Below, piece by piece: positions 1 to 37,134 of a DNA stretch of 64,000 nucleotides; positions within the stretch are counted from its first letter, which is position 1; every line of letters starts with the position of its first letter. The DNA comes from Brasilonema angustatum HA4187-MV1 (lineage in GTDB: Bacteria > Cyanobacteriota > Cyanobacteriia > Cyanobacteriales > Nostocaceae). The position numbers and the translations under genes are program-made. The notes beneath the pieces were generated by a model, which searched no databases, was not told where the DNA came from, and was given only the letters and a program-made list of their open reading frames with translations. The DNA lies in the NCBI GenBank assembly GCA_019359695.1, contig JAHHGV010000018.1, positions 62,001 to 126,000 of the forward strand, in the 5' to 3' direction.

Positions 1-3000
1 GAGATAGCTTCTTGATAGAAAGAACACGTTTAAAGACCTCTACACTTTCTGTAGGTGTAATAAATAATTCAGCTAAAGTTGATTGATGATCTGTATTTTG
101 CTGTTCTTCTTTCTCAACTGGAGAGCCTTCCCAATTTAAGCTAATCCAAGGTACAGTATTCGTGCGATTTTGCTGATAAGTAAAAGCATCCATAAAAAGG
201 TTTGCTGCCGAATAAGCGGCAAATCCTAATCCTCCCAGAATACAGGATACGGAGGATAGTAAAAGGCAAAAATCAACCTCTTTATCATGCAAAACTTTTT
301 GCATGACAAATAATCCATGCACTTTAGACTGAAAAAGTATTTCACAATCCGCCTTACCTATCTCTTGAATAAGTTTATCTGCAACTATCCCTGCCGCATG
401 AATCACACCATTAATTTTGCCAAAGTATTCATATGCCTGAGCTATTGCTGCTTGCATTTGTTCAAAGTTAGCCACATCCGCGCTGATGACTAAAACCTCA
501 GCCCCCAATTCTTCCAGAGTCTTTATTTTTTGAATCTGGCGACTTATTTTGTCCTGTTCACCATGCGTTGCTATCCATTCAGACCAATTCTCTTTGATAG
601 GAAGACCGGAGCGTCCTAACAAGATCAGCTTGGCTTTGAATGCCTTAGCTAAGTATTTGGCGAAAGTAAAGCCAATGTTTCCCAAACCACCAGTGATCAG
701 ATAAACACCTTTGTCCCTAAACTTGGTTTTTTCATCAGTCACTGCATCTAGTTGGACGGGTTCCCATGTTTGAACCCAGCGACGATGTCCACGATACGCA
801 ACTATTAGGTCATCTGTTTTAGTGGTAAATTCTTCTATCAAATAGTCTATTAGCTTCTCGTGTTCAGTTATAGATTTGGGAATCACAACATCAATACTAC
901 GGCAAATTATGTTCGGATATTCTTGTCCAATAACTTTACACGGTCCTAACAAAGTTGCTTTTTCAGGATTTAAACTTTCTTCACCTGTCACCTCATGCAA
1001 ATTGTTTGTTACTGTAATAATTTGCAGAGGATAAGTTATGTTTTGTTTATCTAAGGCTTGAGTTAGGAAAAGCAGGCTGTAAAAGCCTAAATACTGACTA
1101 TTTTCAAAGTCTCGATCTGGTAAGTACGTTTGGTCATATGAAGTGACGTTCCATAAATGGGCGATCGCTTCTGGTATCCTGTCTAATTGGCGCAGTTCTT
1201 GGATCAAGGCTTCATAGTCATCTTGTTGCTGGGGATTGATTGTATATGCATTATCACTTAGTTTTGCAAACTGTTCTCCGGCAACCACTGCGATCGAATT
1301 GTGCTTTTGTTGTTCCAGTCGTGTTACAAGTTCTTTTCCTAACCCACATGCATCAACAAAAACAAGCCAACAAGTCTTTTGAGCTTGTATCTTTTCTTCT
1401 TCAAAAGGTTCAATGAGTTTAGATTGTTTCCATGAAGGAATGTGAAACCAGTCTGCAATATTTGACTCTTTGTGTATTACTTGTGTGGAAACAGGTACAA
1501 AACCTGGTTGTTCGTCAATCCAGTAACGTTGACGCTCGAAAGGATAAGTTGGCAAGGGAATCCGGTGACGCTGCTCGTGAGCATAAAAACCAGACCAGTC
1601 TACTTGAACTCCCAAAAGCCAGAGTTGCCCTAACGTATTGAGCAAGAATGCTATATCCGACTGTTGGTCTTTTGGATGAGGAAGTGAACTCAAAGCCGTA
1701 GGTTTATCTTCTTGATGCGTATAAGCTAAAGCACCCAATGTTCCTCCGGAACCAACCTCTAATAAAATGGCATTTGGCTCTTTTATTAACTCAGCAATAC
1801 CATCTGCAAAGTTTGCTGTTTGCTTTAGATGCTTTGACCAATAGTTCGGATCTGTTGCTTCCGTTGTGGTAATCCAAGTTCCTGACACATTCGAGATAAA
1901 AGGAATCTGAGGTGAGTTAAATTCGATTTTTTCGATTTGCCCAATGTATTGCTCTAGAAGTGGATAGGAGGTTGCCCCCAAGGCTATCTGTTGCAACAGT
2001 TGCCCGCGAACAGCTACTTGTGTTAAGGCATCTTCTAGGGAAAATACACCAGCAAGAGTTGCAGCTACATACTCTCCAGTACTATAACCAATCATAGATT
2101 GAGGACGTATACCCCAAGACAGCCATAGCTGTGCTAAAGCGTACTCAATCACAAACAATGCTAGCTGGGAAATTTGAGTTTGTTCTAGCAAATAAGCAGC
2201 TTTTTCAGCCTGTTCTTGGTTTGGATACAATACTGTGCGTAAATCTAGTTCCTGAGCAGATTTTATAATTTCAGAACAAGAATCAACCCACTGACGGAAT
2301 GTTGGTTCATACTGATATAATTCCAAAGTTTTATTTACACACAGTACTTCCTCCTGAGGAAAGATAAATATAATAGGGCGATCGCCAGGTTCTTGAAAGT
2401 TAGTCAAAACTCGCTGAGGATTTGGAGGGTCTAGTGCCTGCACTGCATCATTTAGATCTTGGCAAACTAATATTCGGCGATGGTTGAAAGCGCGACGACC
2501 TATTTGCAGTACGTGAGCCACATCGGCAAGATTTAATGTCGGGTTGTGCTTGAGGTGAGTTGTTAAATTTACTGTGACATTCTCCAGTGCAGAGCTTGTC
2601 TTCGCAGAAAGTACTAATAACTGCCAAGGGCGAGATTGACATGAGTCTATGTCTTGCCTAATGTCAACTGGTGCTTCTTCTAAAATTACATGTGCATTAG
2701 TACCGCCAATACCAAAAGAACTAACCCCGGCACGGCGAGGACCATTGTCAACCTTCCATTGTGATAGCTCAGTATTTACATAAAAGGGGCTGTTATCGAA
2801 GTCAATTTGAGGTGACGGTTCTTCAAAGTGCAAGCTTGGTGGCAACAAACCATGTTTCAGTGCCAGGACAGTTTTGATAAAGCCAGCAACACCAGCTGCC
2901 GTATTTAAATGACCGACATTAGTTTTTACTGAACCAAGGGCACAAAAGTGTTTTTTCTCAGTATGAAGTGAGAACACTTGTGTTAATGCTGCTACTTCTA

Positions 3001-3988
3001 TTGGATCACCCAAGGGAGTTGCTGTCCCATGAGCCTCAATATATGTAATTGTCTCAGGTTCAACCTCAGCCGTCAGTTGAGCTGCTCTTATAACCTTTGC
3101 TTGACCATCTATACGAGGTGCTGTATAACTAAGTTTAAAAGAACCATCGTTATTAACAGCGGAACCTTTGATCACAGCAGAAATATCGTCTCCATCTGTG
3201 AGAGCATCTTCCAATCGCTTTAACACTACAATACCCACACCATCACCACCGATAGTTCCCTTTGCTTTAGCATCAAAAGTACGGCAGTGCCCATCTGGAG
3301 AAGTAATACCCCCTTCTTGGTAAAGATAGCCTTCTTTTCGATATAAACCTATAGAAACGCCGCCAGCCAAAGCCATATCGCATTCACCACTTAGCAAACT
3401 TTGACAGGCTAAGTGAACAGAGACCAATGATGTTGAGCAGGCAGTTTGAACTGTGTAACTGGGTCCTTCCAAGTTAAGTTTATAGGAAATGCGTGTGGTG
3501 AGAAAATCTCTGTCATTTCCAATGGAAATTTCTAAATCACTAAGCGAACTTGTAATGTTTTGATTTGAATAAAGGTTGAGTAAATATTGGCTAAACCCAG
3601 TACCAGCGTAAATACCAATCGAACCTTTGTAAGACAGAGAGTCATAGCCAGCATTTTCCAGGGCTTCCCAAGCGCATTCTAGAAAAAAACGATGTTGCGG
3701 ATCGGTAATTTCTGCTTCTTTTGCATCAAAACCAAAAAACGAAGCATCAAAAAGTTCTATATCTTTTAATACTCCAGATGCTTTCACATAGTTAGGTTTA
3801 CTCAATACATCTGGATCTATTCCTGAAGCCAGTAACTCCTCATCAGTAAAAAAAGAAATTGTTTCTACTCCTTTCTGGAGATTGTCCCAAAAATCATTAA
3901 GATTTTTAGCTCCAGGAAAACGACCAGCCATGCCAATGACTGCTATTTCTAAACCAGTGTTTTGATTAAAGGGCATAGGATTATCCAT
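1..3988 (-). CDS. Type I polyketide synthase, KS-AT-KR, 3' end outside window
   Basis: Last polyketide extender visible in the assembly line; about 1,329 residues lie in the window and the reading frame is open at base 1. The KS is at about residues 10-430 with active-site motif TACSTSL (Cys near 182). The AT starts near 540 with GYSTGE (Ser near 636; the usual His before Ser is Tyr). The KR has LITGGLGNIG near 1100 and its catalytic Tyr in AAYSAAN near 1258. An ACP is expected further left. ATG at 3988 (protein MDNPMPFNQN) is the first start upstream of the KS. The AT is clearly damaged: compared with the sister gene at 20438-25120 it lacks about 70 residues, including the HAFH motif that carries the catalytic His. 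It should add a malonate unit to the glycine loaded by the preceding NRPS and reduce it, but the AT may be dead or need a trans-acting acyltransferase. Confidence 0.95.
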   Translation of the reverse strand, partial: MDNPMPFNQNTGLEIAVIGMAGRFPGAKNLNDFWDNLQKGVETISFFTDEELLASGIDPDVLSKPNYVKASGVLKDIELFDASFFGFDAKEAEITDPQHRFFLECAWEALENAGYDSLSYKGSIGIYAGTGFSQYLLNLYSNQNITSSLSDLEISIGNDRDFLTTRISYKLNLEGPSYTVQTACSTSLVSVHLACQSLLSGECDMALAGGVSIGLYRKEGYLYQEGGITSPDGHCRTFDAKAKGTIGGDGVGIVVLKRLEDALTDGDDISAVIKGSAVNNDGSFKLSYTAPRIDGQAKVIRAAQLTAEVEPETITYIEAHGTATPLGDPIEVAALTQVFSLHTEKKHFCALGSVKTNVGHLNTAAGVAGFIKTVLALKHGLLPPSLHFEEPSPQIDFDNSPFYVNTELSQWKVDNGPRRAGVSSFGIGGTNAHVILEEAPVDIRQDIDSCQSRPWQLLVLSAKTSSALENVTVNLTTHLKHNPTLNLADVAHVLQIGRRAFNHRRILVCQDLNDAVQALDPPNPQRVLTNFQEPGDRPIIFIFPQEEVLCVNKTLELYQYEPTFRQWVDSCSEIIKSAQELDLRTVLYPNQEQAEKAAYLLEQTQISQLALFVIEYALAQLWLSWGIRPQSMIGYSTGEYVAATLAGVFSLEDALTQVAVRGQLLQQIALGATSYPLLEQYIGQIEKIEFNSPQIPFISNVSGTWITTTEATDPNYWSKHLKQTANFADGIAELIKEPNAILLEVGSGGTLGALAYTHQEDKPTALSSLPHPKDQQSDIAFLLNTLGQLWLLGVQVDWSGFYAHEQRHRIPLPTYPFERQRYWIDEQPGFVPVSTQVIHKESNIADWFHIPSWKQSKLIEPFEEEKIQAQKTCWLVFVDACGLGKELVTRLEQQKHNSIAVVAGEQFAKLSDNAYTINPQQQDDYEALIQELRQLDRIPEAIAHLWNVTSYDQTYLPDRDFENSQYLGFYSLLFLTQALDKQNITYPLQIITVTNNLHEVTGEESLNPEKATLLGPCKVIGQEYPNIICRSIDVVIPKSITEHEKLIDYLIEEFTTKTDDLIVAYRGHRRWVQTWEPVQLDAVTDEKTKFRDKGVYLITGGLGNIGFTFAKYLAKAFKAKLILLGRSGLPIKENWSEWIATHGEQDKISRQIQKIKTLEELGAEVLVISADVANFEQMQAAIAQAYEYFGKINGVIHAAGIVADKLIQEIGKADCEILFQSKVHGLFVMQKVLHDKEVDFCLLLSSVSCILGGLGFAAYSAANLFMDAFTYQQNRTNTVPWISLNWEGSPVEKEEQQNTDHQSTLAELFITPTESVEVFKRVLSIKKLS

Positions 3989-4142: not shown

Positions 4143-7100
4143 TTACTGTATTTGTTTTCGGCGTTGTTTGAGTCGAGCTTTGCCAGTTTTGAGCTTCTCA
4201 GCTTGTGTCTCAGTTTGATGAGAAAATGTTTCTTGATTATTGGTTTGACTGAAATACTCTGCTAGAGAACTGATAGTTGGATATCTCAAAAACTCGATCA
4301 TTGGAAAATCTGTTTGTAATATTTCCCGCAATTGGCTATAAATTTGAATGATGAGTAATGAATGACCACCCAATTCAAAAAAGTTATCGTATATACCTAC
4401 TTTTTCTAGATTCAAGGCTTTTTGCCAAACAGTGGCGATTGTTTGTTGTAGCTTATTTTGTGGCATCGCATATGCAATTTCAAGGTCTGGGCGAAGACCT
4501 TCTGGTGCGGGTAATGCGCGGCGGTTAACCTTACCATTGGGTGTGAGCGGCAGTGATTCTAAAAGTACAAAGTGACTAGGTAACATATAATTGGGCAGCT
4601 TTTCTTGGAGGAAGCAGCGCAGTTCACTATTGGAGGGGACTTGTTGCTTCTTGGGGACAAAATAAGCAACTAAACGTTTGTCACTTGGTTGGTCTTCACG
4701 GGCAATGACCACTACCTCCTGCACTTGAGGATGTTTGGTCAACACTGCTTCAATTTCTCCCAACTCTATACGGAAGCCGCGAATCTTCACTTGGTTATCA
4801 ATTCGACCAAGATACTCGATGTTGCCATCATCTAAATAGCGAGCTAAATCTCCAGTTTTGTAAAGTCGTGCCTCCTTTTCCTGGCTAAAGGGGTTGGCGA
4901 TAAATTTTTCTTGGGTGAGTTCTGGGCGGTTGAGGTAGCCTCTGGCTAAACCATCACCACCAATGTAGAGTTCTCCAGGTACGCCTATAGGTACTAGTTG
5001 GAGGTGTGAGTCTAAGATGTATATTTGGGTGTTACTTATCGGGCGACCAATGGCAGAAGGAGCAGCTTCGTTTCTTGCTACTGTTTTGTTTGCTCTTACT
5101 TGGTAAATTGCAGACCAGATTGTTGCTTCTGTTGGACCATACAGATTCCACAATTCGCTACCAGTTTCTAGAATTTGATGAGCTAGTTGAGCTGGTAATG
5201 CTTCACCACCGCAAAATACTTTCAAGGGATAATTAGAAGACCAACCACCAGCTAATAGCATTTGCCAAGTAGCTGGTGTGGCTTGTATAGCGGTTGTCTT
5301 CGACTCGAATAATTCAGACAACAGCAAATCCGCATCAGTAGCTATTTCACGGGGAACCACGATAACTTTTGCTCCTACCATTAATGGCAGATAAAGTTCA
5401 AGGGCTGCAATATCAAAGGAAATGGTGGTAACTGCACTGAAAGTATCTTCCTGAGTTAATCCCGGAAAATGACTCATAGAATTTAAGAAGTTGACCACAC
5501 TGTGGTGGCAGATTTGAACTCCCTTTGGTAGTCCAGTAGAACCAGAAGTGTAGATCACATAAGCCAAATTATCCGCACCTACCCCAATATCAAGATTTTC
5601 CTTCTGGTATTGCTCAATTGTCTTCCAATCACTATCCAAACAAACCACCTGTGCAGTAGGTGACGGCAAAGATAACAACAACTGGCTGTGAGTCAGCAAC
5701 ACCTCGACACCCGAATCAGTCAACATATAACTTAACCGTTCTTGGGGAAAGCTGGGGTCAAGAGGTACATAAGCTCCACCCGCCTTGAGAATGCCTAACA
5801 ATCCCACCACCATCTCAATCGAACGTTCGACACAAATCCCTACTAACACTTCTGGCTGTACTCCCAAAGTCTGAAGGTAATGCGCCAGACAGTTCGCTCG
5901 GTCATTCAACTGTCGATAAGTTAATTCCTGCTGTTCAAATACTACTGCGATCGCATCCGGTGTTCTCTTTACCTGTTCCTCGAATAGTTGATGGATACAC
6001 TTATCTTTTGGATATTCCCTCTGGGTATCATTCCACTCCATTAACAACTGCTGACGTTCAGTGGCACTTAACAAGCAAACCTGCTCATATTGCTCTTCGG
6101 GTTGAGTAACCATTGCCTCCAAAATTTTGAGGTAATAACCACTGATATTTTTCACCTGTTCAAAGCTAAACTGGCTTGGGTAAGTGAGACTTAAGGAGAT
6201 TTCACCCGTTATCGGATCAACAGGAAATTGAGCTGCGAATGTAAAATTGTTTTGGTCAAAAGATTGCCCCCCTAACACCTCCAAGTTATCAATGCCAGAT
6301 AAACCTTGGTAAACATGAAAATTAACATAATTGAATATTGTTTCAAATAATGGCTGTCCTAATCCCACTTTCTGTTGTAATTGTGCCAAGGGATATTGTT
6401 GGAAAGGCAATGCCTCTCGCTCATTTGCAAAAGTTTGCTCTACCAATTCAACCCAAGTTCCCCCACTTAATTGCATTCGGAAAGGTATGGTATTAAGAAA
6501 CAAACCCAGAACACGCTCGCTATCTTCTGCAGCTGGTCTTCCATGAGTCACCACCCCAGTGGTAATATCTGCTTGATTGCTCAAAAAGCTCATTACTCTC
6601 AAATGAGCAGCTAGCAGAACACTTTTGAGGGGTACTCCAACCTTTATGGCAAACTGTTTGAGTTGTGCTGATAAAGCTGGCGATATCTCAACCGCCTGGT
6701 TACCGACCTGTTCTACTGAGCTATGCTGTTGACTATCTAGCAGACGAGGTAATTTAGTCGCGGTAAAGTCTGCTAGTTTTTCATGCCAGTACCGTTGGCA
6801 CTCCTGAGACTGTAATGTTTCTTGTTCCAAAGCCACATAATCTCGAAATGTTAGACTTGGAACTGTGGAAAGAGGCGGTATCGTCTCACCTAGTAGGAAG
6901 AAATAGTGTTGAACTAATTCTGTCATTAGAGTTGCGAGACTCCATCCGTCTAAAATGGCATGGTGAAAGCTGAAGCTTAAGTTAAAGGTGTCACAACTGC
7001 GTTGATGGATATGAAAGCGTACCAATGGGGGAGTATCCCAAGAAAATGATCGCTGTTTTTCCTGTTCAATCCAAGTAGTAATGTTGCTCTCTTGTTCATC

Positions 7101-10100
7101 TAATGGTAAACAACTGAGGTCGTCAACAGGTAGTTCAATGCTTACTTGAGAATGAACCAATTGTAGTGGTTGTGAAAATTGAGTCATGGCAATGCTAGTA
7201 CGTAGCACTGGATGACGGGTGACAATCTCTTTTATGGCTGAATGCAGAATTTGGATATTGAGGGGAGCTTTTAGATAATAGCTGAAAACATCGTGGTAGA
7301 TGGCAGTCTCAGGAGCATATTCACTATGGAAAAGCATTCCCAACTGTAGCCTTGTCAATGGGTAGGCATCTTCAATCCCATTTGGTAAAGACTGGCGTTC
7401 TTCTGAGCTAATGAGACTGAAAGGGGCTGTTTTTAATATACTTGCGGATAGGTCTGACTGTTGGAGAACCCCAACGAGGTCGTAGATCGTCTGATGGTTA
7501 AATATCTGTTTTAGAGACAGTTTTAATCCACTCTTGTCGGCTTTAGCTAACACTTGCACGGCACGCAAAGAATCTCCACCAAGCGCAAAGAAATTGTCAT
7601 GAATACTCACTTGTGCAACTCCAAGCACTTCAGACCAAATCTGTGCAAGCAGCTCTTCTTCTAGAGTACGAGGAGCAACAAAGTTAGCATTTGATTCAGA
7701 GTTTTGTGAATCTATTTCCCTGAGCGCTTTTCTATCTACTTTGCCATTAGGAGTTAGGGGTAGAGTGTCAAGGATGACGAACACAGAGGGCAGCATGTAA
7801 GCAGGCATTTCCTGTTGCAGGAAGTCCCGTAATTGGTTAGTGCTGAGGGTTTTCTCATTACTGACTACATAAGCGACCAGACGTTTATTTTCAGAATTAT
7901 CGGCAATAGCAATGACCACGGCTTGTTGAATCTGGGGATGAGTACTTAGAACTGCTTCGATTTCGCCCAGTTCGATGCGGAAGCCGCGAATCTTGACTTG
8001 AGCGTCGAGCCGTCCAAGGAATTCAATGTTGCCATCGGGTAAATAACGCACGAGGTCGCCAGTTTTATACAGTTGTGCTGATTTATCAGCGGAAAAGGGA
8101 TTGGGGATGAATTTTTCTAAAGTTAGTTCGGGACGGTTGAGGTAGCCTCTGGCCAAGCCATCGCCTCCGACGTGTAGTTCTCCAGCCACCCCAATCGGTA
8201 CTGGTTGCATGTGTTGGTCTAGGATGTAGACTTGGGTGTTGGCGATTGGCTTGCCAATAGGAACGGTCTGCTGGATGTCTTGCTCATCAACGAGCGAGTA
8301 GCAACAGCTAAAGGTGGTATTTTCCGTTGGACCATAGCCGTTAATTAGGCGACAGTGGGGATGTTGTTGCCTAAATTGCAATACATGGGCAACGGATAAG
8401 ACATCTCCTCCGGCTAATAGTTGTTGCACTGAGGACAAGGCATCCAAGTATTCTTCTACTATCAGATGAAAAAGTCCTGCTGTCAGCCACAAGAAAGTGA
8501 TTTGGTGTTGATGCAAGATTTGTACTAGGAGCGCTAGGTCGAGAGCTTGGCTGGGAAAGATAACTAATTTACTGCCATGAAGCAAGCTTCCCCACAGTTC
8601 TAAGGTGGAAGCGTCAAAGGTAATGGGAGCCAGTTGGAGGAAAACTTGTTCAGAGTTAAAGTGAGCGTAATTAGTATTTTGTAATAGTCTCACTACACCA
8701 CGATGAGCCGTACAAACCCCCTTGGGAGTTCCAGTAGAACCACTCGTGTAGATGACATAAGCCAAATTATCTGCATTGACACTAGTAGCCAAATTCTCCT
8801 GACTATGCTGCTCGATTACTTCCCAATCAGTGTCCAAACAAACCGTCCAGGCAGTTTGAGATGGAACAGACGACGACAAGCTGTCTTGCGTCAACAATAT
8901 TGCCACCTGGGCATCGTCCAACATGTAACTCAGCCGTTCTATCGGATAACTGGGGTCAAGAGGCACATAAGCTCCACCCGCTTTGAGAATACCTAACAAT
9001 CCCACCACCATCTCCAAGGAACGTTCAACACAGAGACCGACCAGTACTTCTGGTCCCACACCGAGGGTTTGGAGATAATGGGCCAGACAGTTCGCTCGGT
9101 CATTCAACTGTCGATAGGTTAATTCCTGCTGTTCAAATACCACTGCGATCGCATCCGGTGTTTTCTCTACCTGTTCCTCAAATAGTTGATGGATACACTT
9201 ATCTTTGGGATATTCGCTGTGGGTATCATTCCACTCAAATAACAACTGCTGACGCTCAGCGGCACTCAGTAGAGGTAATTCAGCAATTTTCCGATCAGGA
9301 TTTTCGGCGATCGCATCCAACAAGTTGTGGAAATGAGCAGCCATGCGTTCAATGGTTGACTCATCAAACAAGTCAGTGTTGTAGTCCCATAACCCCACTA
9401 GTCCTTGGGCAGTGTTCTCAAATGTTAAAATCAGGTCATACTTTGCTATTTTGTTGTTTATAGGCAATGCACTCAAAGTTAAACCTGGAATCTCCATCTC
9501 TAACATAGGAACATTTTGGAAGACAAACATCACCTGGAACAATGGTGTATGGCTTAAGTCACGTTGGGGTTGCAATGTCTCTACCAATAGTTCAAAAGGC
9601 AAGTCTTGATGAGCATAAGCATCCATTGTTACTTCCCGAACTCGCCCAAGTAATTCGCCAAAGGTGGGATTGCCCGAGACATCAGTACGCATCACTAAAG
9701 TATTGACGAAGAAGCCAATTAATCCTTCAATTCCACTGTGATTGCGATTAGCAATGGGCGAGCCGACCAATATATCCACCTGCCCTGTATAGCGGTAAAG
9801 CAAGGTATCAAATGCTGCTAACAGCGTCATGAACAAACTGACTCCTTCTCGCAAACTAAGTGAGTTGAGCGCTTGAGTTAGTTCACTGGATAGAGTAAAA
9901 GATTGACGTGCTCCTCGGAAGGTTTGCACAGCAGGTCTTGGTCGGTCTGTAGGCAGTTCTAATAAAGCTGGTGCACCCGCAAGTTGTTGTCGCCAGTAAG
10001 CGAGATGGGACTCAAGTATTTCACCTTGCAACCAATGGCGCTGCCATACAGCAAAATCGGCGTACTGGACAGTTAGTTCCGTAAGCGGTGAAGGCTGCTG

Positions 10101-10721: not shown

Positions 10722-10781
10722 AAAACACTTATTTTTAATTAGCTAATTGAGCCTATAGTTTTGCTCTTGTGGTAAGAGAGT

Positions 10782-12386: not shown

Positions 12387-12494
12387 GATCGTCTTTTTTT
12401 GAAATTAATTGGATTTGAAACTGGCAGATTACGAGTAGGACTAAATCGCTATCCAAAAGTCAAATTCATGTCAAGTTAATTAGCAAATTAGGGG

Positions 12495-12590: not shown

Positions 12591-12615
12591 TTTGTCATTG
12601 AGCAATTATTTACGA

Positions 12616-20189: not shown

Positions 20190-20198
20190 ATTCGAAGA

Positions 20199-28100: not shown

Positions 28101-31100
28101 GAAGTTAATGCAAGGAATATCAACTTTCAAGGATGGCAATATCTGCTGAAAATCTCCTTGGCTATCGATAGTCGTTCGCAAACCCTCGTGACGCTCTACA
28201 ACTTTCTGTACTGCTTTATGTAGTACTGTTAAATTCAACGAACCCCGTAATTGCAGATTTATAGAGACGTTATAGGCGCTCGATGCTTCTTCTGAAATTT
28301 GCGCTAAAACCCAGAGTTGTTTTTGTGCTTCTGTTAAGGGGACTGTAAGTACAGCATCAGACTTTACTACTTCATCAGAATCAGAGATTGTGGTCAATGA
28401 TGTGAATATTTTCGGATTTACAGGTTCTACGATACCCCCAGAAGGCATTGTAGTCGTTTGTGGCAAAATAGCAGCTTCAGAAGTAGAACTTTTAGCTAAG
28501 AATGAATTTGTCGAATTGCTTTTCGATCCATTCAAGTTGGGTGAACGTTCGGGTAGAAAACCTTCTGCTTGCATTTGGGCTACGCTTTCTTTCACAGCCT
28601 GAATCACATACTGAATATCGGCAGTTGTATGCGCTGTGGACAGAAAACAAGTGCGTCCTTCCCAAACGTAGACACCTTTCTCAATTAAGTGGTAGAAAAA
28701 CAGATCCAAGTTCTTCTTAAAGCTAAAGCGGAACAGTGAGCCAAAATAAACCACTTGAATAGGTACATGCTCTTGTTGAAAGAAGGTATTGAGTGTTTGG
28801 GCTAACTGTGCTGTGCGTTGATTTAATTGCTCTTGAAGACCCGATCCCTGATTTTTAAGATGTTTAAGTACCGCTCTTGCGGTCGCCAAAGCCAGAGAAT
28901 ATTTGTTAAAAGTACCTGCAAAAAATGTCCTTTCTGCTTCAGGATACGAATCGTCACCGTAATTCCACTGACCACCATCGATTGCATTCATCAAGGTAGC
29001 CTTACCAGCTACTGCTGCAAACGGCAGACCACCACCAGAAATTTTACCGTAAGTTGCCAAGTCTGCTTTTACACCAAAGTATTTTTGCGCACCACCCGGA
29101 TGAATGCGAAAGCCAGTAATTATTTCATCAAAAATCAAGACTGTGCCTGCTTTTGCGGTCACTTGCCTCAAGTGCTGTAAAAACTCTTTGGGTTGTAAAT
29201 CGGGTCGCCGACTTTGTACGGGTTCAACCAAAACCGCAGCTAATTCATGAGCATGAGCTTCGATATACTCTAATGCACCAGGATCGCCATAATCGAGTAC
29301 CACAACATCTTCAACCATGTGTGGCGATATACCGGGAGCAAACGGTACAGAAACCTGCTCGTCATCAGATGCTTGTGCTCTAGCTAAAACTCCATCAAAA
29401 TGCCCATGATAAGAACCTGAGAATAGGACAATCTTTGTGCGTCCTGTCGCTGTTCGTGCTAAACGCAGTGATGTCATTACGGCTTCTGTACCTGACTGAC
29501 AAAAGGTGACGCGTTCTGTACCCGTCAGTTCGCACAACAACTCTGCCACTTCCCCCGCTAGACTGGATTGGGGACCTAGTTGTATACCAAGTTTTATCTG
29601 CTCCTGTAAAGCTTCTATGACAAAGGGCGGATTGTGACCAAATAGATGCACGCCAAAGCCCATTGTGATGTCTACATACTCGTTACCATCCACATCCCAA
29701 AACCTAGAACCAACAGAGCGATCGCAAACAATAGGGTAAACCATTTCCTTGATCGAAGGACGGAATCCCGCCGCAGCTCTGCTGTCAGCTAGAACATGGT
29801 GATAAGATTGCTTTGCTTGTTTTGACCCTTGCGTGCGCTTGGTATAGCGTGCAATCAATGCCTCTAAGTGTTGCTGTTGTTTAGAATTTAGCCCTTCCGC
29901 TCCTTCTGCGGTAATTCTTTGCAAACTTAAAGGTTCTTGAGTTCCTGTTCCTTTAACCAAATTGTTTGCTGGACTTGCTGGCTTTGAGGTTTTGATCAAT
30001 CCTACTTGTGACTCATCTGTTGATGAGACAACATGATTGTTTTGTAATAACTGCAATTGTTGAGATATGACTTGAGACGTGAGTTGTAGTTGCTGAGCCA
30101 TAATTCGCTCAAGTCCTGTTTCAACTACTGATGTTTTATTTACTAACCCGTTCTCACGCACAGATGTAGACTTCTCAGCCACAGTTGGAAGCGCAGGTTG
30201 TGGGAGTTGGGGTAATGTACCAATTGCAATTGCAGGTTCTGAAGCTTCTTCCTGGATAGTTTGGTTGGGTTGATTTTGAGCGATAATTTCAGGCTCTGTT
30301 AATTTTTCCTCGATCGCAACTTCGGGTTGATTTTGCTCTATGTAACTTGCAAGACTGTCAATATTTGTTAGCTCTTCAAACATCTGGCGAATAGTCACCT
30401 TAATTCCAAAGGTGTTTTCAATAGTTCTGACAGCTTCAATCAGAACTATTGAATCTGCACCCATTTCCAAAAAAGGTTCATAAACATTAATTTCCGACAA
30501 GTCTGTTTGGAGTAAACCAGCTACAAGAGTACTTAATTGTGATATTATTTTCTCTTTATATATCGTTTTTTGAACAGTATTAAGCTGTGGTTTCACTAGT
30601 TGTGTATCTGAATTTTTCAAATCCATAGAATTGTTGTTTTTCTCTTCGTCCGAGTCGAACCAATAACTTTTACGCTGAAAAGGATAAGTGGGCAAAGAGA
30701 TTTTTTGTCGTTGGTAGTCATGGTCATATCCCACCCAATTGACTTCTACTCCTTGAGTGTCTAATATCCCCAAGCTTTTCAATAAAACCTGCCAGTCATC
30801 TTGCCCATACTGTAATGAAGGTAGCCAAGTACTTTTTACGTTCGGCAAGCATCGCTTACCCATAGCTGATAAACTAGGGCGAGGACCAATTTCGAGAAAT
30901 ACTTTATCACCTTGCTCTGCTATGGTGTTGATTCCTGCCGCAAATTGCACTGGTTCTCTCAGGTGGCGACGCCAATAACTTGCATCTGGAATTTCTCCTG
31001 GCTGGAAAATTTCACCTGTCAGATTAGAAATTAAAGGAATTTGTGGGGCTTGAAAGTTTACTGTTGCTGCCTTAGACTCAAATTCATCAAGAATTGGCTC

Positions 31101-33314
31101 CATCAATGGTGAGTGGAAAGCATGAGAAACTTCCAAAGGCTTTACAGTAATCCCTTGGGACTGAAACTGTTCAACTGCCGACTGCACATATTCTCTTAAA
31201 CCGGAAATGACGATGTTGTTTGGTCCGTTAACAGCTGCAATGGAAACACTAGTGTCCGTCGCTACTTTTGATGACGCTGTTTCATACTGGGTAAGAATGT
31301 TGACTACTTTCTCCTGTTCGGCAAACACCACTGCCATTTCACCATTATCTGGCAAAGACTGCATTAACCGACTGCGTTCTGCAACGAGCATAAGTCCTTC
31401 TTCCAGACTGAACACTCCAGCGACACATGCAGCAACATACTCACCTACACTGTGACCTATGACAGCATCTGGTACAATTCCCCAAGAACGCCACAATTCA
31501 GCAAGGGCATATTCTAGAGCAAACAGGGCTGGCTGGGTATAGGCAGTTTCATCTAACAGATGAGCTGTCTGGGTCGTCCCGTAGAGTATCTCAAGCAGTG
31601 ACTGCTCTAAATAGGGTTTCAGGAGTTGCTCGCATTGCTGCAATATTTTCCTAAAAGTGGGTTGAGTTTCATAGAGCTTGCGTCCCATACCATGAAACTG
31701 AGAGCCTTGCCCAGTGAAGAGAAACACTATCTTAGGGCGATTCACAATCTCCACAGTTCCATTAATAACTCCAGATGCCTGCTTCCCAGTAGTAAAAGCA
31801 GTTAGTTGCTCGATCAACTGTGTAGTAGATTCAGTGACAATTGCCAAGCGGTGGTTGAAATGCGATCGCCCGACATTAGCAGTAAAGCAAATGTCTGCCA
31901 GTGATGCTTTAGGATGAAACCTGACGAAATCTACATAACTCTGTGCCAATTCCTGTAACGCTGTCTCACTTTTTGTCGAAAGTGTCAACAGGTGCATTTT
32001 GCGTTCAAGATCGCTAGGGGAGAAAGTCACAGCAGGCGCTTCTTCAAGAATCACATGGCAATTGGTACCACCAAAGCCAAACGAGCTTACCCCTGCTAAA
32101 CGTTTTTCTGTACCAGCAATCCAAGGTTGGCGTTTAGTTGGAATCGAAAACGGAGTTCCTTCAAAAGAAATATATGGATTCAGTTGCTGCAAGTGCAAGT
32201 GCGGTGTAATCTCTTTATGTTGTAGTGAAAGTACCGCCTTGATCAGTCCAGCAATTCCCGCAGCAGCTTCTAAATGACCAATATTAGTTTTAACTGAACC
32301 AATATAACAAGGCTGCTCTAAGGAACGACCCTCCATTAGCACAGCTTTTAGAGCTCTAATCTCAATGGGATCTCCCAAAGGGGTACCAGTGCCGTGGGTT
32401 TCAACATAACTAATCTGCGCTGGTGTTACTCCAGCACTTTTTAAGGCTTGACGGATTACTCTTTGTTGAGAAAGACCATTAGGAGCTGTAAGTCCATTGG
32501 TAAGACCATCTTGGTTAACTGCTGAACCTTTGATAATTGCCAGAATATTGTCTTGATCTCTTTGAGCTTCCCAAAGACGTTTGAGGACAAGTACACCACA
32601 GCCTTCGCCTCTAACATAACCATCAGCATTAGCGTCAAAAGTTTTACAACGCCCATCTGCTGACATCATACCTGCCTGCGAGAAAACAATATGATTATTT
32701 GGAGATAAAATCAGGTTCACACCTCCAACCAAGCAAAGCTCAGACTCTCCAATCTGCAAACTCTGACAGGCGTAATGTAGTGAAACTAATGAAGAAGAGC
32801 AAGCAGTATCTATTGTCACACTTGGTCCATGCAGATCCAGCAAGTACGACAGACGATTGGCAGCAATACTAAAAGCGTTTCCCGTGCCACTATAAGCATT
32901 TATACTGTCTAAATCCTTGACTTGCAAAACGCCATAGTCATGGCTGCTGATGCCCATGAAAACCCCCGTCTGGCTCTGAGCTAGTTTGTCTGGTGCTAGT
33001 CCAGCATTTTCTAGAGCTTCCCAGGCTACCTCCAAAATTAGCCTTTGCTGGGGATCCATTCGCTCTGCCTCACGGGGGGAAATCCTAAAGAATCTAGGAG
33101 CAAACAGATCTACCTGCTCTAGAAAACTGCCAAAGCGGGTATTCATTTTTCCCGGTGTAACCGGTTTTGGATCGTATAAGGTATCAATATCCCATCGCTC
33201 TGATGGCACCTCAGTAATGGCGTCCACACCGTTTCTTAGTAGATGCCAGAAGGCTTCTGGGTGGTTAGCACCCGGAAAACGACAGCCAATGCCTATAATC
33301 GCTATAGCTTCCAT
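25113..33314 (-). CDS. Hybrid PKS-NRPS: KS-AT-ACP-aminotransferase-C-A-PCP
   Basis: 2,733 residues. KS about 3-430 (DTACSSSL, Cys near 172), AT 530-850 (GHSVGEY near 621, SHAFHS near 731, malonyl-type), ACP 925-995 (GADSIVL, Ser near 955), a linker rich in Gln/Pro, then a PLP aminotransferase of the GSA type at about 1150-1560 with the Lys loop GKISGGGLPF (near 1424). It continues with C (HHIVVDG near 1789), A (TSGSTG near 2266) and PCP (GGHSLLIIQ near 2656). This order is known from mycosubtilin/iturin and cyanobacterial beta-amino fatty acid lipopeptides: the fatty acyl chain is extended by two carbons and the beta-keto group is aminated, then joined to the first amino acid. The A pocket reads DVWHISLID(K), a Ser-type code. 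It ends in a basic tail (KRQKQLMKQKRKANV). Confidence 0.96.
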   Translation of the reverse strand: MEAIAIIGIGCRFPGANHPEAFWHLLRNGVDAITEVPSERWDIDTLYDPKPVTPGKMNTRFGSFLEQVDLFAPRFFRISPREAERMDPQQRLILEVAWEALENAGLAPDKLAQSQTGVFMGISSHDYGVLQVKDLDSINAYSGTGNAFSIAANRLSYLLDLHGPSVTIDTACSSSLVSLHYACQSLQIGESELCLVGGVNLILSPNNHIVFSQAGMMSADGRCKTFDANADGYVRGEGCGVLVLKRLWEAQRDQDNILAIIKGSAVNQDGLTNGLTAPNGLSQQRVIRQALKSAGVTPAQISYVETHGTGTPLGDPIEIRALKAVLMEGRSLEQPCYIGSVKTNIGHLEAAAGIAGLIKAVLSLQHKEITPHLHLQQLNPYISFEGTPFSIPTKRQPWIAGTEKRLAGVSSFGFGGTNCHVILEEAPAVTFSPSDLERKMHLLTLSTKSETALQELAQSYVDFVRFHPKASLADICFTANVGRSHFNHRLAIVTESTTQLIEQLTAFTTGKQASGVINGTVEIVNRPKIVFLFTGQGSQFHGMGRKLYETQPTFRKILQQCEQLLKPYLEQSLLEILYGTTQTAHLLDETAYTQPALFALEYALAELWRSWGIVPDAVIGHSVGEYVAACVAGVFSLEEGLMLVAERSRLMQSLPDNGEMAVVFAEQEKVVNILTQYETASSKVATDTSVSIAAVNGPNNIVISGLREYVQSAVEQFQSQGITVKPLEVSHAFHSPLMEPILDEFESKAATVNFQAPQIPLISNLTGEIFQPGEIPDASYWRRHLREPVQFAAGINTIAEQGDKVFLEIGPRPSLSAMGKRCLPNVKSTWLPSLQYGQDDWQVLLKSLGILDTQGVEVNWVGYDHDYQRQKISLPTYPFQRKSYWFDSDEEKNNNSMDLKNSDTQLVKPQLNTVQKTIYKEKIISQLSTLVAGLLQTDLSEINVYEPFLEMGADSIVLIEAVRTIENTFGIKVTIRQMFEELTNIDSLASYIEQNQPEVAIEEKLTEPEIIAQNQPNQTIQEEASEPAIAIGTLPQLPQPALPTVAEKSTSVRENGLVNKTSVVETGLERIMAQQLQLTSQVISQQLQLLQNNHVVSSTDESQVGLIKTSKPASPANNLVKGTGTQEPLSLQRITAEGAEGLNSKQQQHLEALIARYTKRTQGSKQAKQSYHHVLADSRAAAGFRPSIKEMVYPIVCDRSVGSRFWDVDGNEYVDITMGFGVHLFGHNPPFVIEALQEQIKLGIQLGPQSSLAGEVAELLCELTGTERVTFCQSGTEAVMTSLRLARTATGRTKIVLFSGSYHGHFDGVLARAQASDDEQVSVPFAPGISPHMVEDVVVLDYGDPGALEYIEAHAHELAAVLVEPVQSRRPDLQPKEFLQHLRQVTAKAGTVLIFDEIITGFRIHPGGAQKYFGVKADLATYGKISGGGLPFAAVAGKATLMNAIDGGQWNYGDDSYPEAERTFFAGTFNKYSLALATARAVLKHLKNQGSGLQEQLNQRTAQLAQTLNTFFQQEHVPIQVVYFGSLFRFSFKKNLDLFFYHLIEKGVYVWEGRTCFLSTAHTTADIQYVIQAVKESVAQMQAEGFLPERSPNLNGSKSNSTNSFLAKSSTSEAAILPQTTTMPSGGIVEPVNPKIFTSLTTISDSDEVVKSDAVLTVPLTEAQKQLWVLAQISEEASSAYNVSINLQLRGSLNLTVLHKAVQKVVERHEGLRTTIDSQGDFQQILPSLKVDIPCINFSNVDSCERESKVVEWFKQESLKPFDLTQAPLFRCYVLKLEEQLHLLVMTAHHIVVDGWSINVILQELGALYSQECQGEVCQLKPPMQFREYIDWQEQQSQTEEMAAHESYWLEKFASSTPVLNLPIDHPRPPIKTYRGNRQTLRLNASLYREVKQFSSKKGCTPFMTLLSAYTAFLHRLTNQEDIVVGISSAGRSSASSEKLVGYCSHLLPIRSCIVENLAFSEYLGKMKGVLLEAYENQDYPFAWFLKQLKLGRDASHSPLIATIFNLDRPVAVPKMFGLETEIFSPPIAFTGFDISFYVIEMGDELVLNCDYNTDLFDAATISRILGHFQTLVEGIISHPEQRLFELPLLSESEQHQLLVEWNNTQADYLQDKCIHQLFEQQVEKTPYAVAVVFENQQLTYQQLNQTANQLAHHLQTLGVGPEVLVGICVERSIEMVVGLLGILKAGGAYVPLDPSYPQERLSYMLEDSSVEVLLTHRSLLEYLPQNQARVVCLDTDLVETEQHQKENLDVGVCSDNLAYVIYTSGSTGLPKGAMNTHQGICNRLLWMQEAYQLTSSDRVLQKTPFSFDVSVWEFFWPLLTGARIVIAKPEGHKDSTYLVNLIFTQQITTIHFVPSMLQVFLLEPNCGNCSCLKRVICSGEALPFELTERFFEHLECELHNLYGPTEAAIDVTFWQCQIQENRQLVPIGRPIANTQVYILDKQLQAVPIGVPGELYIGGDGLARGYLNRPELTSEKFIPNPLCDHKSERLYKTGDLARYGSDGNIEFLDRVDNQVKIRGFRIELGEIESVLNTHPQIQQAVVIATEDLTGNKRLVAYIVSEDELLTTNQLREFLFSKLPEYMVPSAFVTLDTLPLTPNGKVDRKALPVPDLSTSDLLEGFVAPSTPTEEILAKLWMEVLGRKQVGIYDNFFDIGGHSLLIIQVGNKVREIFNSNISVTDLFKYPTISNLAKYLSQENNVEQTTLAPSDELAKKQKEAIKRQKQLMKQKRKANV

Positions 33315-33411: not shown

Positions 33412-34821
33412 TCACTCAGCTGAAGCAACTAACTTAGAGAACTGTTTGAATGTCTTGATATTATCTCTAATAGCTCTGTCAACCGTTCCTCCTGAAGCCA
33501 TGAGACGCATTTCGCGGTTAATTGGCCATAGATAGTCGAGATTCTCACAAAGTTTACGTATATCTAAATGAAGACGCTGGTGGCATTTAACTGACTGATG
33601 AAAACCTTCGTGTTCTTGACAGAAACATTTCTCAACCCATTGAACGGCTTCTTCGTGAGACAGATTAAATAAAGTGCTCCTAAACACCTTATAAATATAG
33701 AACATTCCCGATAAATCATCTCCAAAAAAGCGATTCTTGATTACTCCCGATATATGGCTAAGGTTAGTCTTTTGAGTGACATAAACTGCCCAATTAATCA
33801 GTAATTTTTCGTAAGCAGTTGGCGCTGGGAAGTTTTTATGTAAATCTCGAGCTAGGAATAAAGATGTCGTTGTATGGAAAGATTCATCTAAAAAGTGGTA
33901 GTGGGAGATAGCAGTTGGTACTGGAACATACTCGCCTTGCTTCTGAAGTTTTTTGAAATACAAATGTATAGTATGTTCTTGATTCTTCAAAAGCATATTA
34001 GCAAGATAACGTAACGTATAGTATTGGCTAGCTAAGAAGGGTGAACTGCCCCAACTAGATGCAAAGAATCGGATGAAATAAGAAGGAAGCATTCCGTATC
34101 CATGGAAAAAACCATTAGTAGTCGTTACAGATAATTTATTTTTGGCTTCTAGTTTTTTCAAATGAGGAGAGACATAATGTTTTCTTTTATCGGAAATTAG
34201 GGTCGATAAAAAGCGTAGACTATGATACTGAAAATTTGCAAATTGACTATTTTTTGCAGGCTTGTTTTCCAGCAAAATATTAGTAAAAGCTTGCTTGCCT
34301 AACAAATTTTTCAAAATTTGGAAATTAACTTTGAAGAAAGCATGAATATGAACACGTTCTTGAACCGCTTCATGTTCAAGCTGTTCAGCAAGAATTTTAT
34401 AATTACCGCCTAAAGCAGAGAAACAATCTGCTGTTATTAGGTTATAGTCAATTGTTTCCATTTCACTATAAGCGGTAAGGCTATAGTTTGACATCCAAAA
34501 TTGATGATTAAGTGCTATTTTTTGAGATGGAGAAGCAACTTCATAAAAGGGTGTTCCGTAAAGAAGTGAAAGTTCAGGAGGATTCCAATAATATTTACTC
34601 TGTTCTTCATATTTGAAATTGTGGTCTAGCTCCTTAATTTTCTCAGTGTAGTCAGAATTCAGGTTATTCTGGTAATTATTTTCAACAATTTTAATACGTT
34701 TGATTTCCTTTTCTACAGTAAATTTGGGATTTGGCATACTTGTGTTTGGATCGCTGTTGACATTTTGCATTGTTTTCACCTTATCAAATACTACATGTTT
34801 GTTTCGGTATTTAGCTAACAA
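33412..34821 (-). CDS. Diiron oxygenase/halogenase candidate (AurF/CylC-type)
   Basis: 469 residues without signal peptide. Three ExxH motifs stand out: EHEAVQERVH (about 150-160), LDESFH (about 307) and EHEGFH (about 395), the pattern expected of a non-heme dimetal-carboxylate enzyme with a helical core. It lies between a fatty acyl-AMP ligase plus free ACP and the first PKS. That is the same context as CylC, the dimetal halogenase that chlorinates an acyl chain on CylB in cylindrocyclophane synthesis. I therefore infer that it oxidises or chlorinates the ACP-bound fatty acyl starter. An AurF-like N-oxygenase or other hydroxylase is possible. The start is one base past the ACP stop; an internal ATG at 34770 is an alternative. 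Confidence 0.65.
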   Translation of the reverse strand: MLAKYRNKHVVFDKVKTMQNVNSDPNTSMPNPKFTVEKEIKRIKIVENNYQNNLNSDYTEKIKELDHNFKYEEQSKYYWNPPELSLLYGTPFYEVASPSQKIALNHQFWMSNYSLTAYSEMETIDYNLITADCFSALGGNYKILAEQLEHEAVQERVHIHAFFKVNFQILKNLLGKQAFTNILLENKPAKNSQFANFQYHSLRFLSTLISDKRKHYVSPHLKKLEAKNKLSVTTTNGFFHGYGMLPSYFIRFFASSWGSSPFLASQYYTLRYLANMLLKNQEHTIHLYFKKLQKQGEYVPVPTAISHYHFLDESFHTTTSLFLARDLHKNFPAPTAYEKLLINWAVYVTQKTNLSHISGVIKNRFFGDDLSGMFYIYKVFRSTLFNLSHEEAVQWVEKCFCQEHEGFHQSVKCHQRLHLDIRKLCENLDYLWPINREMRLMASGGTVDRAIRDNIKTFKQFSKLVASAE

Positions 34822-34822: not shown

Positions 34823-35158
34823 TTACTGCTTAATAGATAAGCTGTTAGCTAAATACTTTGTTAAAGCTTCAATAGTTGGATAATCGTACAGCAAAGTTGG
34901 TTCAAATTCGCATTCAAGCCATTCCTCTATCTCTCCACTCAATCCAATGGCAGACGCAGAATCCATGTTGTAGCAGTCAAAGGGAAGTGTAACATCAATC
35001 TCATTTGGATTAATTTTTAATACATTTGTTAGGTAGGACACTAACCACGCTTGAATTTCTGCTGTAGTCTTAAGCTTTTCAGGTGAGGCTTCCACGTGAT
35101 AGGCATTATTAGTTTTTAAATCAGAGTTACTCATTTGAAAATTCAAAAATTCAACCAT
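34823..35158 (-). CDS. Free-standing acyl carrier protein for the fatty acyl starter
   Basis: 111 residues with one carrier domain at about 30-105; the phosphopantetheine Ser is in NMDSASAIGL. The helix-II region (EIEEWLECEFEP) is strongly acidic, as in ACPs that partner with fatty acyl-AMP ligases. It lies 92 bp after that ligase gene and one base before the diiron enzyme gene, so it should receive the acyl group from the ligase, present it to the diiron enzyme and pass it to the KS at 25113-33314. ATG at 35134 (MSNSDLK) may be the true start since the first eight residues look non-domain. Confidence 0.9.
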   Translation of the reverse strand: MVEFLNFQMSNSDLKTNNAYHVEASPEKLKTTAEIQAWLVSYLTNVLKINPNEIDVTLPFDCYNMDSASAIGLSGEIEEWLECEFEPTLLYDYPTIEALTKYLANSLSIKQ

Positions 35159-35221: not shown

Positions 35222-35255
35222 CTTAATTAGTTTAGCAATTGCTAAACTAATTAAG
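35222..35255. terminator. Perfect 34 bp palindrome between ligase and ACP genes
   Basis: Two perfect 17 nt arms with no loop spacer (CTTAATTAGTTTAGCAA and its complement). It overlaps the ligase stop codon at 35251. The stem is A/T-rich and no clear U-run follows on the minus strand, so it may be a weak terminator, an mRNA 3' end stabiliser or a protein-binding site rather than a full terminator. Confidence 0.5.
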
Positions 35256-37134
35256 ACTTACTTTTCTCACTGCTGACAGTTGATAATTGGTTCAAAGTTA
35301 ATTCGATATCAGACTGCAAATTCATAAATTTGACTTGATGCCGAGGATTTTCACTCCATTCACTGACAACATCCAAATCTCCAACTAGAAATTTAGATCG
35401 ACAGGCTTGACGTTGAATCTTACCACTAGAAGTTTTAGGGATACTTGCAGTCTTAATCAGTACGATGCTATAAATCTGTAGAGAATATTCTGCTGTTATC
35501 GCTTGGCGAATATTTCTCAGCACCTCACTGGTGTCTAATTTTCGTAAATAACTCCGTTCTAACTCTTGAACAACAACCAGGTGTTCAATTCCATTTACCT
35601 CAATCGTAAAAACAGATCCACAACTAGGTCGCAGTGCTGGATGACTCTTCTCTACTGTTAGTTCAATATCCTGAGGATAATAATTTCTTCCTCGGATAAT
35701 TATAACATCTTTAAGTCGCCCTGTAATGAATAATTCACCATCGTGCAAAAATCCTAAATCTCCAGTGCGTAAAAATGGTTCAGATCCAGCATCAGTATCT
35801 TCATCAGTATCTTGTAGTTGCGCGTTAAAAGTTTGTTGGGTCAGATCAGGTCGATTCCAATAGCCATCAGCAACAGAAGAACCATGAACCCAAATTTCTC
35901 CTACTTGGTCAGCATGACACAAGGTTAAGGAATTGGGATCGATGATCGCAAGTTTCTGCTCTAACCAAGTCTGGCCACAGCCAATGATTTTCCGACGATC
36001 TGTATACTCATCGCTAACTTCTATAACCCGATTTTGTTCAAGAGCTGTTCCATCAACACAAAGTACTGTTGGCAAAGCTGTTTTCAAACCTCCAGAAACA
36101 AATAAGGTTGTCTCAGCCATCCCATAGCAAGGGTAAAACGCCTCGTCACGAAAACCACAAGATGCAAAAGTGGTTGTAAATTCTGCCAATGTCTCTGCAC
36201 GGACAGGTTCTGCTCCATTGAAAGCTACTTCCCAGCTGCTCAAATCAAGAGTAGAGAGTTGTTCGGAAGTAATCTTGCGAACGCATAGTTCATAAGCAAA
36301 ATTGGGCCCACCGCTAGTCGTCGCTTTGTAGCGGGAAATTGCTTGCAGCCAGCGCAAAGGCTTCTGTAGAAAAGCTACTGGCGACATGAGAATGCATGGT
36401 ATGCCTAAATATAATGGTTGCAGTACATTTCCAATCAGTCCCATGTCGTGGAATAAGGGCAACCAACCTACAAAAATAGTTTCCTTTGTATGCCCAAAAG
36501 CCTTTTCAATCATTCGCTGATTATGCAATAGATTACCATGACTCACCATTACCCCTTTGGGTGTTCCAGTAGAACCTGAAGTATATTGGAGAAAAGCCAG
36601 GTCACTCTCGAACAAAGTCGGTTCTTGCCAGTTTGACGCCAAGTCGCTGTTGAGGTTATCGGTAGCTATCCATTGCACAGCATCCAATTCTGGATTCTCA
36701 GTCAATTGGTTCTCTACATTAGCTAAAAGAGATTGAGTGGTCAGCGCCACTGACGCTTGGGCATCTGATACAATCGCTTGCAGTCTGGATAGTTTTTGAT
36801 TGCGTCGAGGCGGATAGGCGGGAACGGCGACACACCCAGCGTATAAACAGCCAAAGAAAGCAGTAATAAAATCTAGACCTGGTGGAAACAGCAACAAGAC
36901 TCGCGAACCAGGAACTTTAACTCGGTCTTGAACTCGAACGGCGATCGCTTGCGCTTTTCGCTCCAATTCTTGATAAGTAAGACTTACGCTTTCTGTTTCC
37001 CCGTTTAATAAAAAGGTATAGGCAATTTGTTCAGACTGATGTATTGCTCGGTATTGCAAGATATCTAAAAAGGTAGAAAATTTATCCATTTTCTTCTCAT
37101 CTTTATAAGGTTTCAGCATACAATTCGACTCCAC
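35251..37134 (-). CDS. Fatty acyl-AMP ligase (FAAL), starter activation
   Basis: About 600-627 residues of the ANL superfamily. ATP motif YTSGSTGTPKG is near 187-197, the second motif AFNGAEPVR follows, then YGMAETT and TGDLGFL, and the C-terminal hinge and Lys region IPKTSSGKIQR. It has FAAL hallmarks (PAYPPRR, WLPLFHDMGL) rather than those of NRPS A domains. It adenylates a fatty acid and loads it on the adjacent ACP. It is the first gene of the operon. Several starts are possible: GTG at 37134, ATG at 37119, or ATG at 37089 (MDKFSTFLDI), the last preceded by a purine-rich GAGAAGAA and matching where the domain begins. Confidence 0.93.
   Translation of the reverse strand: MESNCMLKPYKDEKKMDKFSTFLDILQYRAIHQSEQIAYTFLLNGETESVSLTYQELERKAQAIAVRVQDRVKVPGSRVLLLFPPGLDFITAFFGCLYAGCVAVPAYPPRRNQKLSRLQAIVSDAQASVALTTQSLLANVENQLTENPELDAVQWIATDNLNSDLASNWQEPTLFESDLAFLQYTSGSTGTPKGVMVSHGNLLHNQRMIEKAFGHTKETIFVGWLPLFHDMGLIGNVLQPLYLGIPCILMSPVAFLQKPLRWLQAISRYKATTSGGPNFAYELCVRKITSEQLSTLDLSSWEVAFNGAEPVRAETLAEFTTTFASCGFRDEAFYPCYGMAETTLFVSGGLKTALPTVLCVDGTALEQNRVIEVSDEYTDRRKIIGCGQTWLEQKLAIIDPNSLTLCHADQVGEIWVHGSSVADGYWNRPDLTQQTFNAQLQDTDEDTDAGSEPFLRTGDLGFLHDGELFITGRLKDVIIIRGRNYYPQDIELTVEKSHPALRPSCGSVFTIEVNGIEHLVVVQELERSYLRKLDTSEVLRNIRQAITAEYSLQIYSIVLIKTASIPKTSSGKIQRQACRSKFLVGDLDVVSEWSENPRHQVKFMNLQSDIELTLNQLSTVSSEKSKS

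Follow-up and report, generated by a model that had tools for sequence, protein, structure and literature searches.

Brasilonema angustatum HA4187-MV1 carries a hybrid polyketide synthase–nonribosomal peptide synthetase (PKS–NRPS) gene cluster for a putative beta-amino lipopeptide, part of which lies in the 64,000-nucleotide stretch analysed here (the window; C79:62001-126000 of a 98-contig, 8.5-Mb genome). The acyltransferase (AT) domain of its last PKS module is dead, and we propose, with a probability of roughly two in three (0.68), that the terminal unit of the product is hydroxymalonyl, delivered in trans to this AT-dead module. The cluster is real, looks complete and is common to more than one genome. 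Open reading frames (ORFs) and Pfam scans bore out the ten minus-strand genes that a first-pass annotation had listed at positions 1-37134, in the same order and with the same main domains. The neighbouring DNA to the left revealed that the cluster exceeds the window: it continues for 9.9 kb leftward on the contig, down to C79:52060, and measures ~47 kb overall. This region holds the acyl carrier protein–thioesterase (ACP–TE) end of the tenth gene and seven further genes of the same run, all on the minus strand, for an MFS transporter (C79:59454-60800), an HBDH (C79:58057-58911), a small ACP of 85 residues (C79:57758-58015), an ACAD (C79:56556-57710), an FkbH (C79:55452-56522), an AT-ACP protein (C79:53409-55349) and a discrete AT (C79:52060-53391). 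The small ACP between HBDH and ACAD was recovered from the short-ORF listing and scores above the PP-binding cut-off.

The tenth gene (C79:60775-65988, of which 1..3988 lie in the window, minus strand) had been read as KS-AT-KR. Its ketosynthase (KS) and ketoreductase (KR) stand; the whole protein, however, is a 1737-residue KS-AT-KR-ACP-TE in which the AT has degenerated to a remnant (residues 541-735; window 1784..2368, minus strand). The Pfam AT profile is covered from position 16 to 124 of 319 only, whereas the two remaining PKS proteins match it over 1-318 and over 1-317. An alignment with the four intact ATs of the cluster showed that the first active-site motif is gone, that the serine motif reads GYSTGEY and that ~70 residues including the catalytic His are missing. 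Counted along the alignment, with subdomain limits taken from PMC4207774 (this and the other papers are cited from excerpts of their text), the missing stretch would correspond to residues ~229-300 of ZmaA-AT, a range that takes in the small subdomain (226-292) as well as the lid that bears H297. Brasilonema sp. CT11 and Rhizonema sp. NSF051 have the identical deletion, and in Rhizonema the nucleophile is lost as well (Ser to Gly; GYGTGEY). A sequencing error was considered and rejected, because three genomes share the deletion. Around the remnant, the KS Cys/His, KR, ACP Ser and TE GHSFGG motifs are intact, and these four domains are under purifying selection, with ratios of non-synonymous to synonymous substitution rates (dN/dS) of 0.14-0.34 versus CT11 and Rhizonema (three sequences for one gene, two for each of three others). 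Against Rhizonema alone they range from 0.15 (KS) to 0.27, and the dead AT gives 0.52, as expected for a segment released from catalysis. Since its own AT is dead, the terminal module is, as judged from the sequence, unable to load itself. An AT-less module and a discrete AT are thus found in one cluster, and loading of the former by the latter is predicted from the genes.

The remnant shows a further peculiarity. When the Brasilonema angustatum and Rhizonema genes are compared (L010 775-5988 versus L123), the part of the terminal PKS that begins with the linker and reaches to the post-AT region (residues 440-800) has a synonymous rate (dS) of 0.10-0.13, compared with 0.71 in the KS and 0.45 in the KR. 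As this is far below the KS and KR values, the dead-AT segment was probably exchanged recently between the Brasilonema and Rhizonema lineages.

The genes outside the window include a full set for an unusual extender unit. FkbH scores 276 bits against TIGR01686 (cut-off 147 bits) and is the single match at E<=1e-60 in its genome; with ACAD, HBDH and the small ACP it makes up a complete hydroxymalonyl- or methoxymalonyl-ACP cassette. In such cassettes FkbH puts a glyceryl unit on the small ACP, and HBDH and ACAD oxidise it to hydroxymalonyl-ACP. Of the 290 other genomes examined from the order, 17 contain an FkbH match of 64-75% (E<=1e-60), and each of the 19 loci of ~20 kb around those FkbH genes has HBDH, ACAD and FkbH. 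For the reading of ATs these loci were joined by 7 of 33 from another locus list; the small ACP lies between HBDH and ACAD in 23 of the resulting 26, the exceptions being two loci with a long gap, where another ORF was picked (L068, L073), and one with HBDH cut off (L082). The cassette stands in the same gene run as the cluster in both Brasilonema genomes, and it has no other obvious client in the cluster, because the other two in-line ATs are of the GHS type.

The kind of unit is suggested by a methyltransferase. In the genome of HT-58-2 the AT-ACP protein runs on into an FkbM-type methyltransferase domain, and the Rhizonema protein starts a similar domain before its contig ends; in both Brasilonema genomes it ends right after the ACP. 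The HT-58-2 methyltransferase domain had no match at 1e-3 in the window or in loci L009 and L011 (the rest of the genome was not searched for an unrelated methyltransferase), and the cassette contains no O-methyltransferase at these loci. A remnant between AT-ACP and AT was sought and rejected, as there were only chance matches (best E 0.81) and none in CT11 either. Given that the fused methyltransferase of the relatives is absent here, hydroxymalonyl is expected for Brasilonema and methoxymalonyl for the relatives.

A sequence signature links the free AT-ACP protein to such cassettes. An AT with GYS instead of GHS at the active site is present in all 19 cassette loci L062-L080 (18 by pattern, and L076, with GYSLGEC, by eye). 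A DNA pattern search for this motif, which also demands Val-Ala after it and tolerates a few other residues at the Ser place, found it in 25 of 291 genomes: 17 are among the 18 with FkbH, and 8 among the remaining 273 (Fisher p 1.4e-20, with genomes counted as independent and kinship uncorrected); our own genome was missed because of its variant GYSISEY. In most GHS ATs from these loci, the carrier-recognition site consists of a polar or charged residue followed by Cys and Arg, whereas GYS ATs start it with Ala or Val and have Arg third in all but one. Exceptions are two GHS ATs, TVK in the first PKS of the present cluster and VSR in L089, and one HT-58-2 GYS AT with ASC. L089 itself (8573-14448) is a locus from a Gemmatimonadota metagenome-assembled genome (MAG) where a KS-AT-KR-ACP protein and an adjoining FkbH reading frame lie in an NRPS cluster. 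A GHS AT adjoins the cassette in L088, a 10-kb contig, and in one HT-58-2 cluster, which has a GYS AT in its last module.

Phylogenetic analysis of 52 AT domains united all 26 intact GYS rows in a single group (100/99), with the four AT-ACP rows as a subgroup (100/100). The four discrete ATs are grouped (100/100) among the GHS rows, and the three dead ATs cluster with GHS rows as well (91/92), outside the GYS group; for this reason an origin of the dead AT from a decayed GYS-type AT was set aside as unlikely, if not with certainty. Both free ATs have ZmaA-AT as their best match in the PDB (2e-97 and 4e-100), an enzyme specific for hydroxymalonyl-ACP, whose active site reads GYSFG and whose triplet at the position linked with ACP-borne units is the hydrophobic MCM (PMC4207774). 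The discrete AT stands out: it combines a GHS motif with MCL and HAPH, while GHS ATs from these loci almost always show a polar or charged residue, Cys, Arg and HAFH. Its carrier site is hydrophobic in all four genomes where it was found (MCL in the two Brasilonema strains, ICL in Rhizonema, VCL in HT-58-2). Among the at most five candidates scored per genome, a discrete-AT match at 1e-185 was found in at least one of 291 genomes.

Several observations weigh against delivery of hydroxymalonyl in trans. Compared with CT11, the dead AT has a dN/dS of 0.18, not above the other segments. The AT-ACP protein reads ACR at the carrier-recognition site, which is not a fully hydrophobic triplet. Since the dead AT falls outside the GYS group, the ancestral terminal module probably took malonyl. 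The 40 kb read around the pair of AT-ACP-methyltransferase and AT in HT-58-2 contain no AT-dead module, and the nearest PKS AT has GHSVGEY. Finally, eight genomes (G181, G256, G245, G273, G220, G162, G244 and G267) have the GYS motif and lack an FkbH match at 1e-60, which may reflect an incomplete assembly, a cassette that is split or the use of another unit.

With hydroxymalonyl as the preferred terminal unit, the assembly line can be followed from its start (all genes on the minus strand). A fatty acyl-AMP ligase (FAAL; 35251..37134; Pfam AMP-binding 2.6e-68 plus a DIP2-like AMP domain) would load a fatty acid onto the starter ACP (34823..35158; PP-binding 7.9e-13). The next gene (33412..34821) had been noted simply as a diiron enzyme. 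Such an enzyme is indeed encoded, and the role that had been missed is suggested by its resemblance to CylC halogenases: it scores 25.5 bits, below the Pfam AurF cut-off of 29.6, and its QKIALN and EHEGF stretches are those encoded by published cylC primers, as translated here. The order FAAL-ACP-CylC-PKS has been described for clusters expected to yield halogenated fatty acids (PMC8406957). We therefore regard the product as a probable fatty-acyl halogenase, a CylC-like dimetal-carboxylate enzyme, and the tail as probably chlorinated; homologues at 1e-40 occur in 42 of 291 genomes, our own counted. A KS-AT-ACP-aminotransferase (AMT) module would then form the beta-amino acid. That FAAL, ACP and AMT start the line with a beta-amino fatty acid, as previously suggested, is supported by the domain order: FAAL, free ACP and KS-AT-ACP-AMT-C are all present by Pfam, likewise in CT11.

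The same protein (25113..33314) continues with condensation (C), adenylation (A) and peptidyl carrier protein (PCP) domains. Its code, DVWHISLID, is one of five that are all identical in CT11 and that we take to mean Ser, Asn-like (DATKVGEVG), Pro-like (DAHIITHVV, uncertain), Val (DALWLGGTF) and Gly (DILQFGLIW). Ser would be joined, malonyl-extended and reduced, the extension falling to a KS-AT-KR-ACP protein (20438..25120) whose intact AT is of the malonyl type (GHSIGEY, NCR, HAFH). Asn-like and Pro-like or hydroxylated residues would be added by a protein with a TubC_N dock followed by two C-A-PCP modules (13473..20189), and Val and Gly by a further C-A-PCP pair (4143..10721). The codes and the intact AT agree with the Ser-derived ketide and the Asn, Val and Gly of the first-pass annotation; the residue left unclear there acquires a Pro-like code, if of uncertain meaning. 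Two hydroxylases are encoded between these proteins. The CmlA-type diiron beta-hydroxylase (10782..12386; CmlA_N 5.4e-101) is nearest in the PDB to the diiron monooxygenase 8a90 (1.1e-139), then to CmlA itself (4jo0; 2.1e-118), and presumably acts, by analogy, on a PCP-bound amino acid. The PhyH-type enzyme (12616..13434; PhyH 2.4e-30) may use a free amino acid, because it is related to the leucine hydroxylase 5nch and to ectoine hydroxylases (PDB matches 5nch, 2.9e-66, and 7e01, 4.6e-71); a literature search on its substrate gave nothing usable.

At the end of the line, FkbH, ACAD, HBDH and the small ACP would make hydroxymalonyl-ACP, and the AT-ACP protein, the discrete AT or both would pass the hydroxymalonyl unit to the terminal ACP. 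The module would extend Gly by this one unit, the KR would reduce it, and the TE would release the chain, probably via ring closure on the beta-amino group. The predicted product is a (probably chlorinated) beta-amino fatty acyl – 4-amino-3,5-dihydroxypentanoyl (Ser-derived) – Asn-like – Pro-like or hydroxylated – Val – 4-amino-2,3-dihydroxybutanoyl chain, whose last residue would be heavier by one oxygen (15.995 Da, hand-calculated) than the malonyl product. The second reduced ketide of the first-pass annotation is thus probably not an ordinary malonyl unit, because the module's AT is dead and a full cassette with two free ATs lies just outside the window.

How the two free ATs share the work can be imagined in different ways. 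A variant compatible with hydroxymalonyl loading, to which we give appreciable weight though short of even odds, is that only one of them serves the terminal module and the other is left over from a rearrangement. The AT-ACP protein resembles the AT-ACP part of a KS-AT-ACP module in cassette clusters such as L064, as this variant would have it, yet both ATs are retained with intact motifs in the two Brasilonema genomes, Rhizonema and HT-58-2. Somewhat more tentatively, we envisage a relay in which the GYS AT of the AT-ACP protein takes hydroxymalonyl off the small ACP and places it on the carrier fused to itself, a maturation platform that in Rhizonema and HT-58-2 includes a methyltransferase. 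The discrete AT with its MCL site would then feed the terminal module, and in such a relay the product would have switched from methoxy to hydroxy when Brasilonema lost the methyltransferase.

A different and distinctly less probable course is that the terminal module receives malonyl in trans, whether from the neighbouring PKS with its intact AT, from the discrete GHS AT or from a housekeeping malonyl transferase, giving a 4-amino-3-hydroxybutanoyl end, with the cassette supplying something else. The GHS motif of the discrete AT and the position of both this enzyme and the dead AT among malonyl-type rows would fit. Its MCL and HAPH residues, however, set the discrete AT apart from almost every GHS AT in these loci, and the cassette would be left without a client in both Brasilonema clusters. 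That the cluster is decaying, with the dead AT blocking the last step and no full product made, is improbable: the AT is truly broken and its dN/dS versus Rhizonema exceeds that of the KS, but the deletion is common to two genera, the other checked active sites are intact and under purifying selection, and both free ATs persist in all three genomes.

The layout is not a matter of chance, since 16 compared proteins of CT11 are in the same order at 89.7-99.3% identity; the small ACP is found there too. Full-length AT-ACP occurs in two of seven genomes of the genus, our own and CT11; three others match its AT part only (59-61%, a second match 50%) within long PKS proteins. For CT11, 36 clusters have been predicted, six of them NRPS–PKS hybrids that may include the present one, and the main text of PMC7503407, as excerpted, gives no account of it. 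Parts of the cluster occur in Rhizonema sp. NSF051, whose MAG consists of short contigs, with identities of 84% for the terminal PKS, 89% for the first PKS (residues 1-1505), 92% for ACAD, 80% for FkbH, 75% for AT-ACP and 82-83% for the discrete AT. Its first PKS (L165, C268, 333-9411) has a cut AMT joined directly to a KS-AT(GYS)-KR-ACP module, which may be an assembly fault or chimera, or a real deletion. In HT-58-2 the extender cassette is present, AT-ACP and AT included, and the cluster is not; we rejected this genome as a carrier of the whole because its CmlA gene and AT-ACP cassette are 1.4 Mb apart. There the order is HBDH-ACP-ACAD-FkbH-[AT-ACP-FkbM methyltransferase]-AT (L145/L146, C1:3823918-3863917, 16401-24055), and the cassette may serve a distant cluster. 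The main text of the HT-58-2 paper mentions neither FkbH nor methoxymalonyl (PMC8073705).

Elsewhere in the window, a PEP mutase/isocitrate lyase family protein (40517-41533) adjoins the cluster. An 812-residue protein with DUF4347, FG-GAP, cadherin-like and RTX-type calcium-binding repeats is encoded at 49307-51745, and at 52076-58198 an Asp/Asn beta-hydroxylase family protein, an amidohydrolase and a Rieske/PaO oxygenase lie close together, adjoined by a HisRS-like gene (56810-58198).

Among known systems, the FK520 methoxymalonyl cassette has the same extender enzyme set and soraphen SorC the AT-ACP-methyltransferase layout of HT-58-2, but the present Brasilonema cassette has no methyltransferase. 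Oxazolomycin belongs to another product class. CylC-containing type I PKS clusters yield chlorosphaerolactylate, columbamide, microginin or puwainaphycin types, and their downstream assembly lines differ from the present one. The discrete AT OzmC of oxazolomycin biosynthesis is alike by its published description as specific for methoxymalonyl-ACP (PMC6164871). The zwittermicin A synthetase is likewise a hybrid PKS–NRPS with a cassette for hydroxymalonyl-ACP and a GYS AT for it (PMC4207774, PMC6164871). There, however, the hydroxymalonyl AT resides inside ZmaA and the discrete ZmaF carries the ACP-borne aminomalonyl unit (PMC4207774, PMC6164871), whereas here the GYS AT is in a separate AT-ACP protein and the module AT is dead; the product class also differs. 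The puwainaphycin synthetase (puwA-H) starts alike, with FAAL, free ACP, a PKS module with aminotransferase and an NRPS module (PMC4219810). The present cluster adds the CylC-like enzyme, two further PKS modules, PhyH, CmlA and the extender cassette, and Pfam scans at 1e-5 revealed none of the puwainaphycin traits in the excerpt of that paper, i.e. a monooxygenase domain beside the AMT and a methylating and reducing PuwB-like PKS. The earlier remark that the cluster is apparently undescribed holds for the main texts of the literature searched, which did not describe it or its arrangement and to which most subscription journals do not belong. Each part belongs to a known kind. Within the reach of these searches, what is new is the combination: a module whose in-line AT is dead, accompanied by a free AT-ACP, a free AT and a hydroxymalonyl cassette.

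If this holds true, the Brasilonema cluster would be a natural example of an assembly line that otherwise loads in-line, but where a single module has lost its loader and has been rescued by free loaders and a rare extender unit. Such complementation is what PKS engineers try to build (PMC6164871). CT11 is a cultured strain in which the product could be sought. The GYS active site and the carrier site opening with Ala or Val flag cyanobacterial ATs tied to hydroxymalonyl or methoxymalonyl cassettes and, if that link is true, would alter product predictions for orphan clusters.

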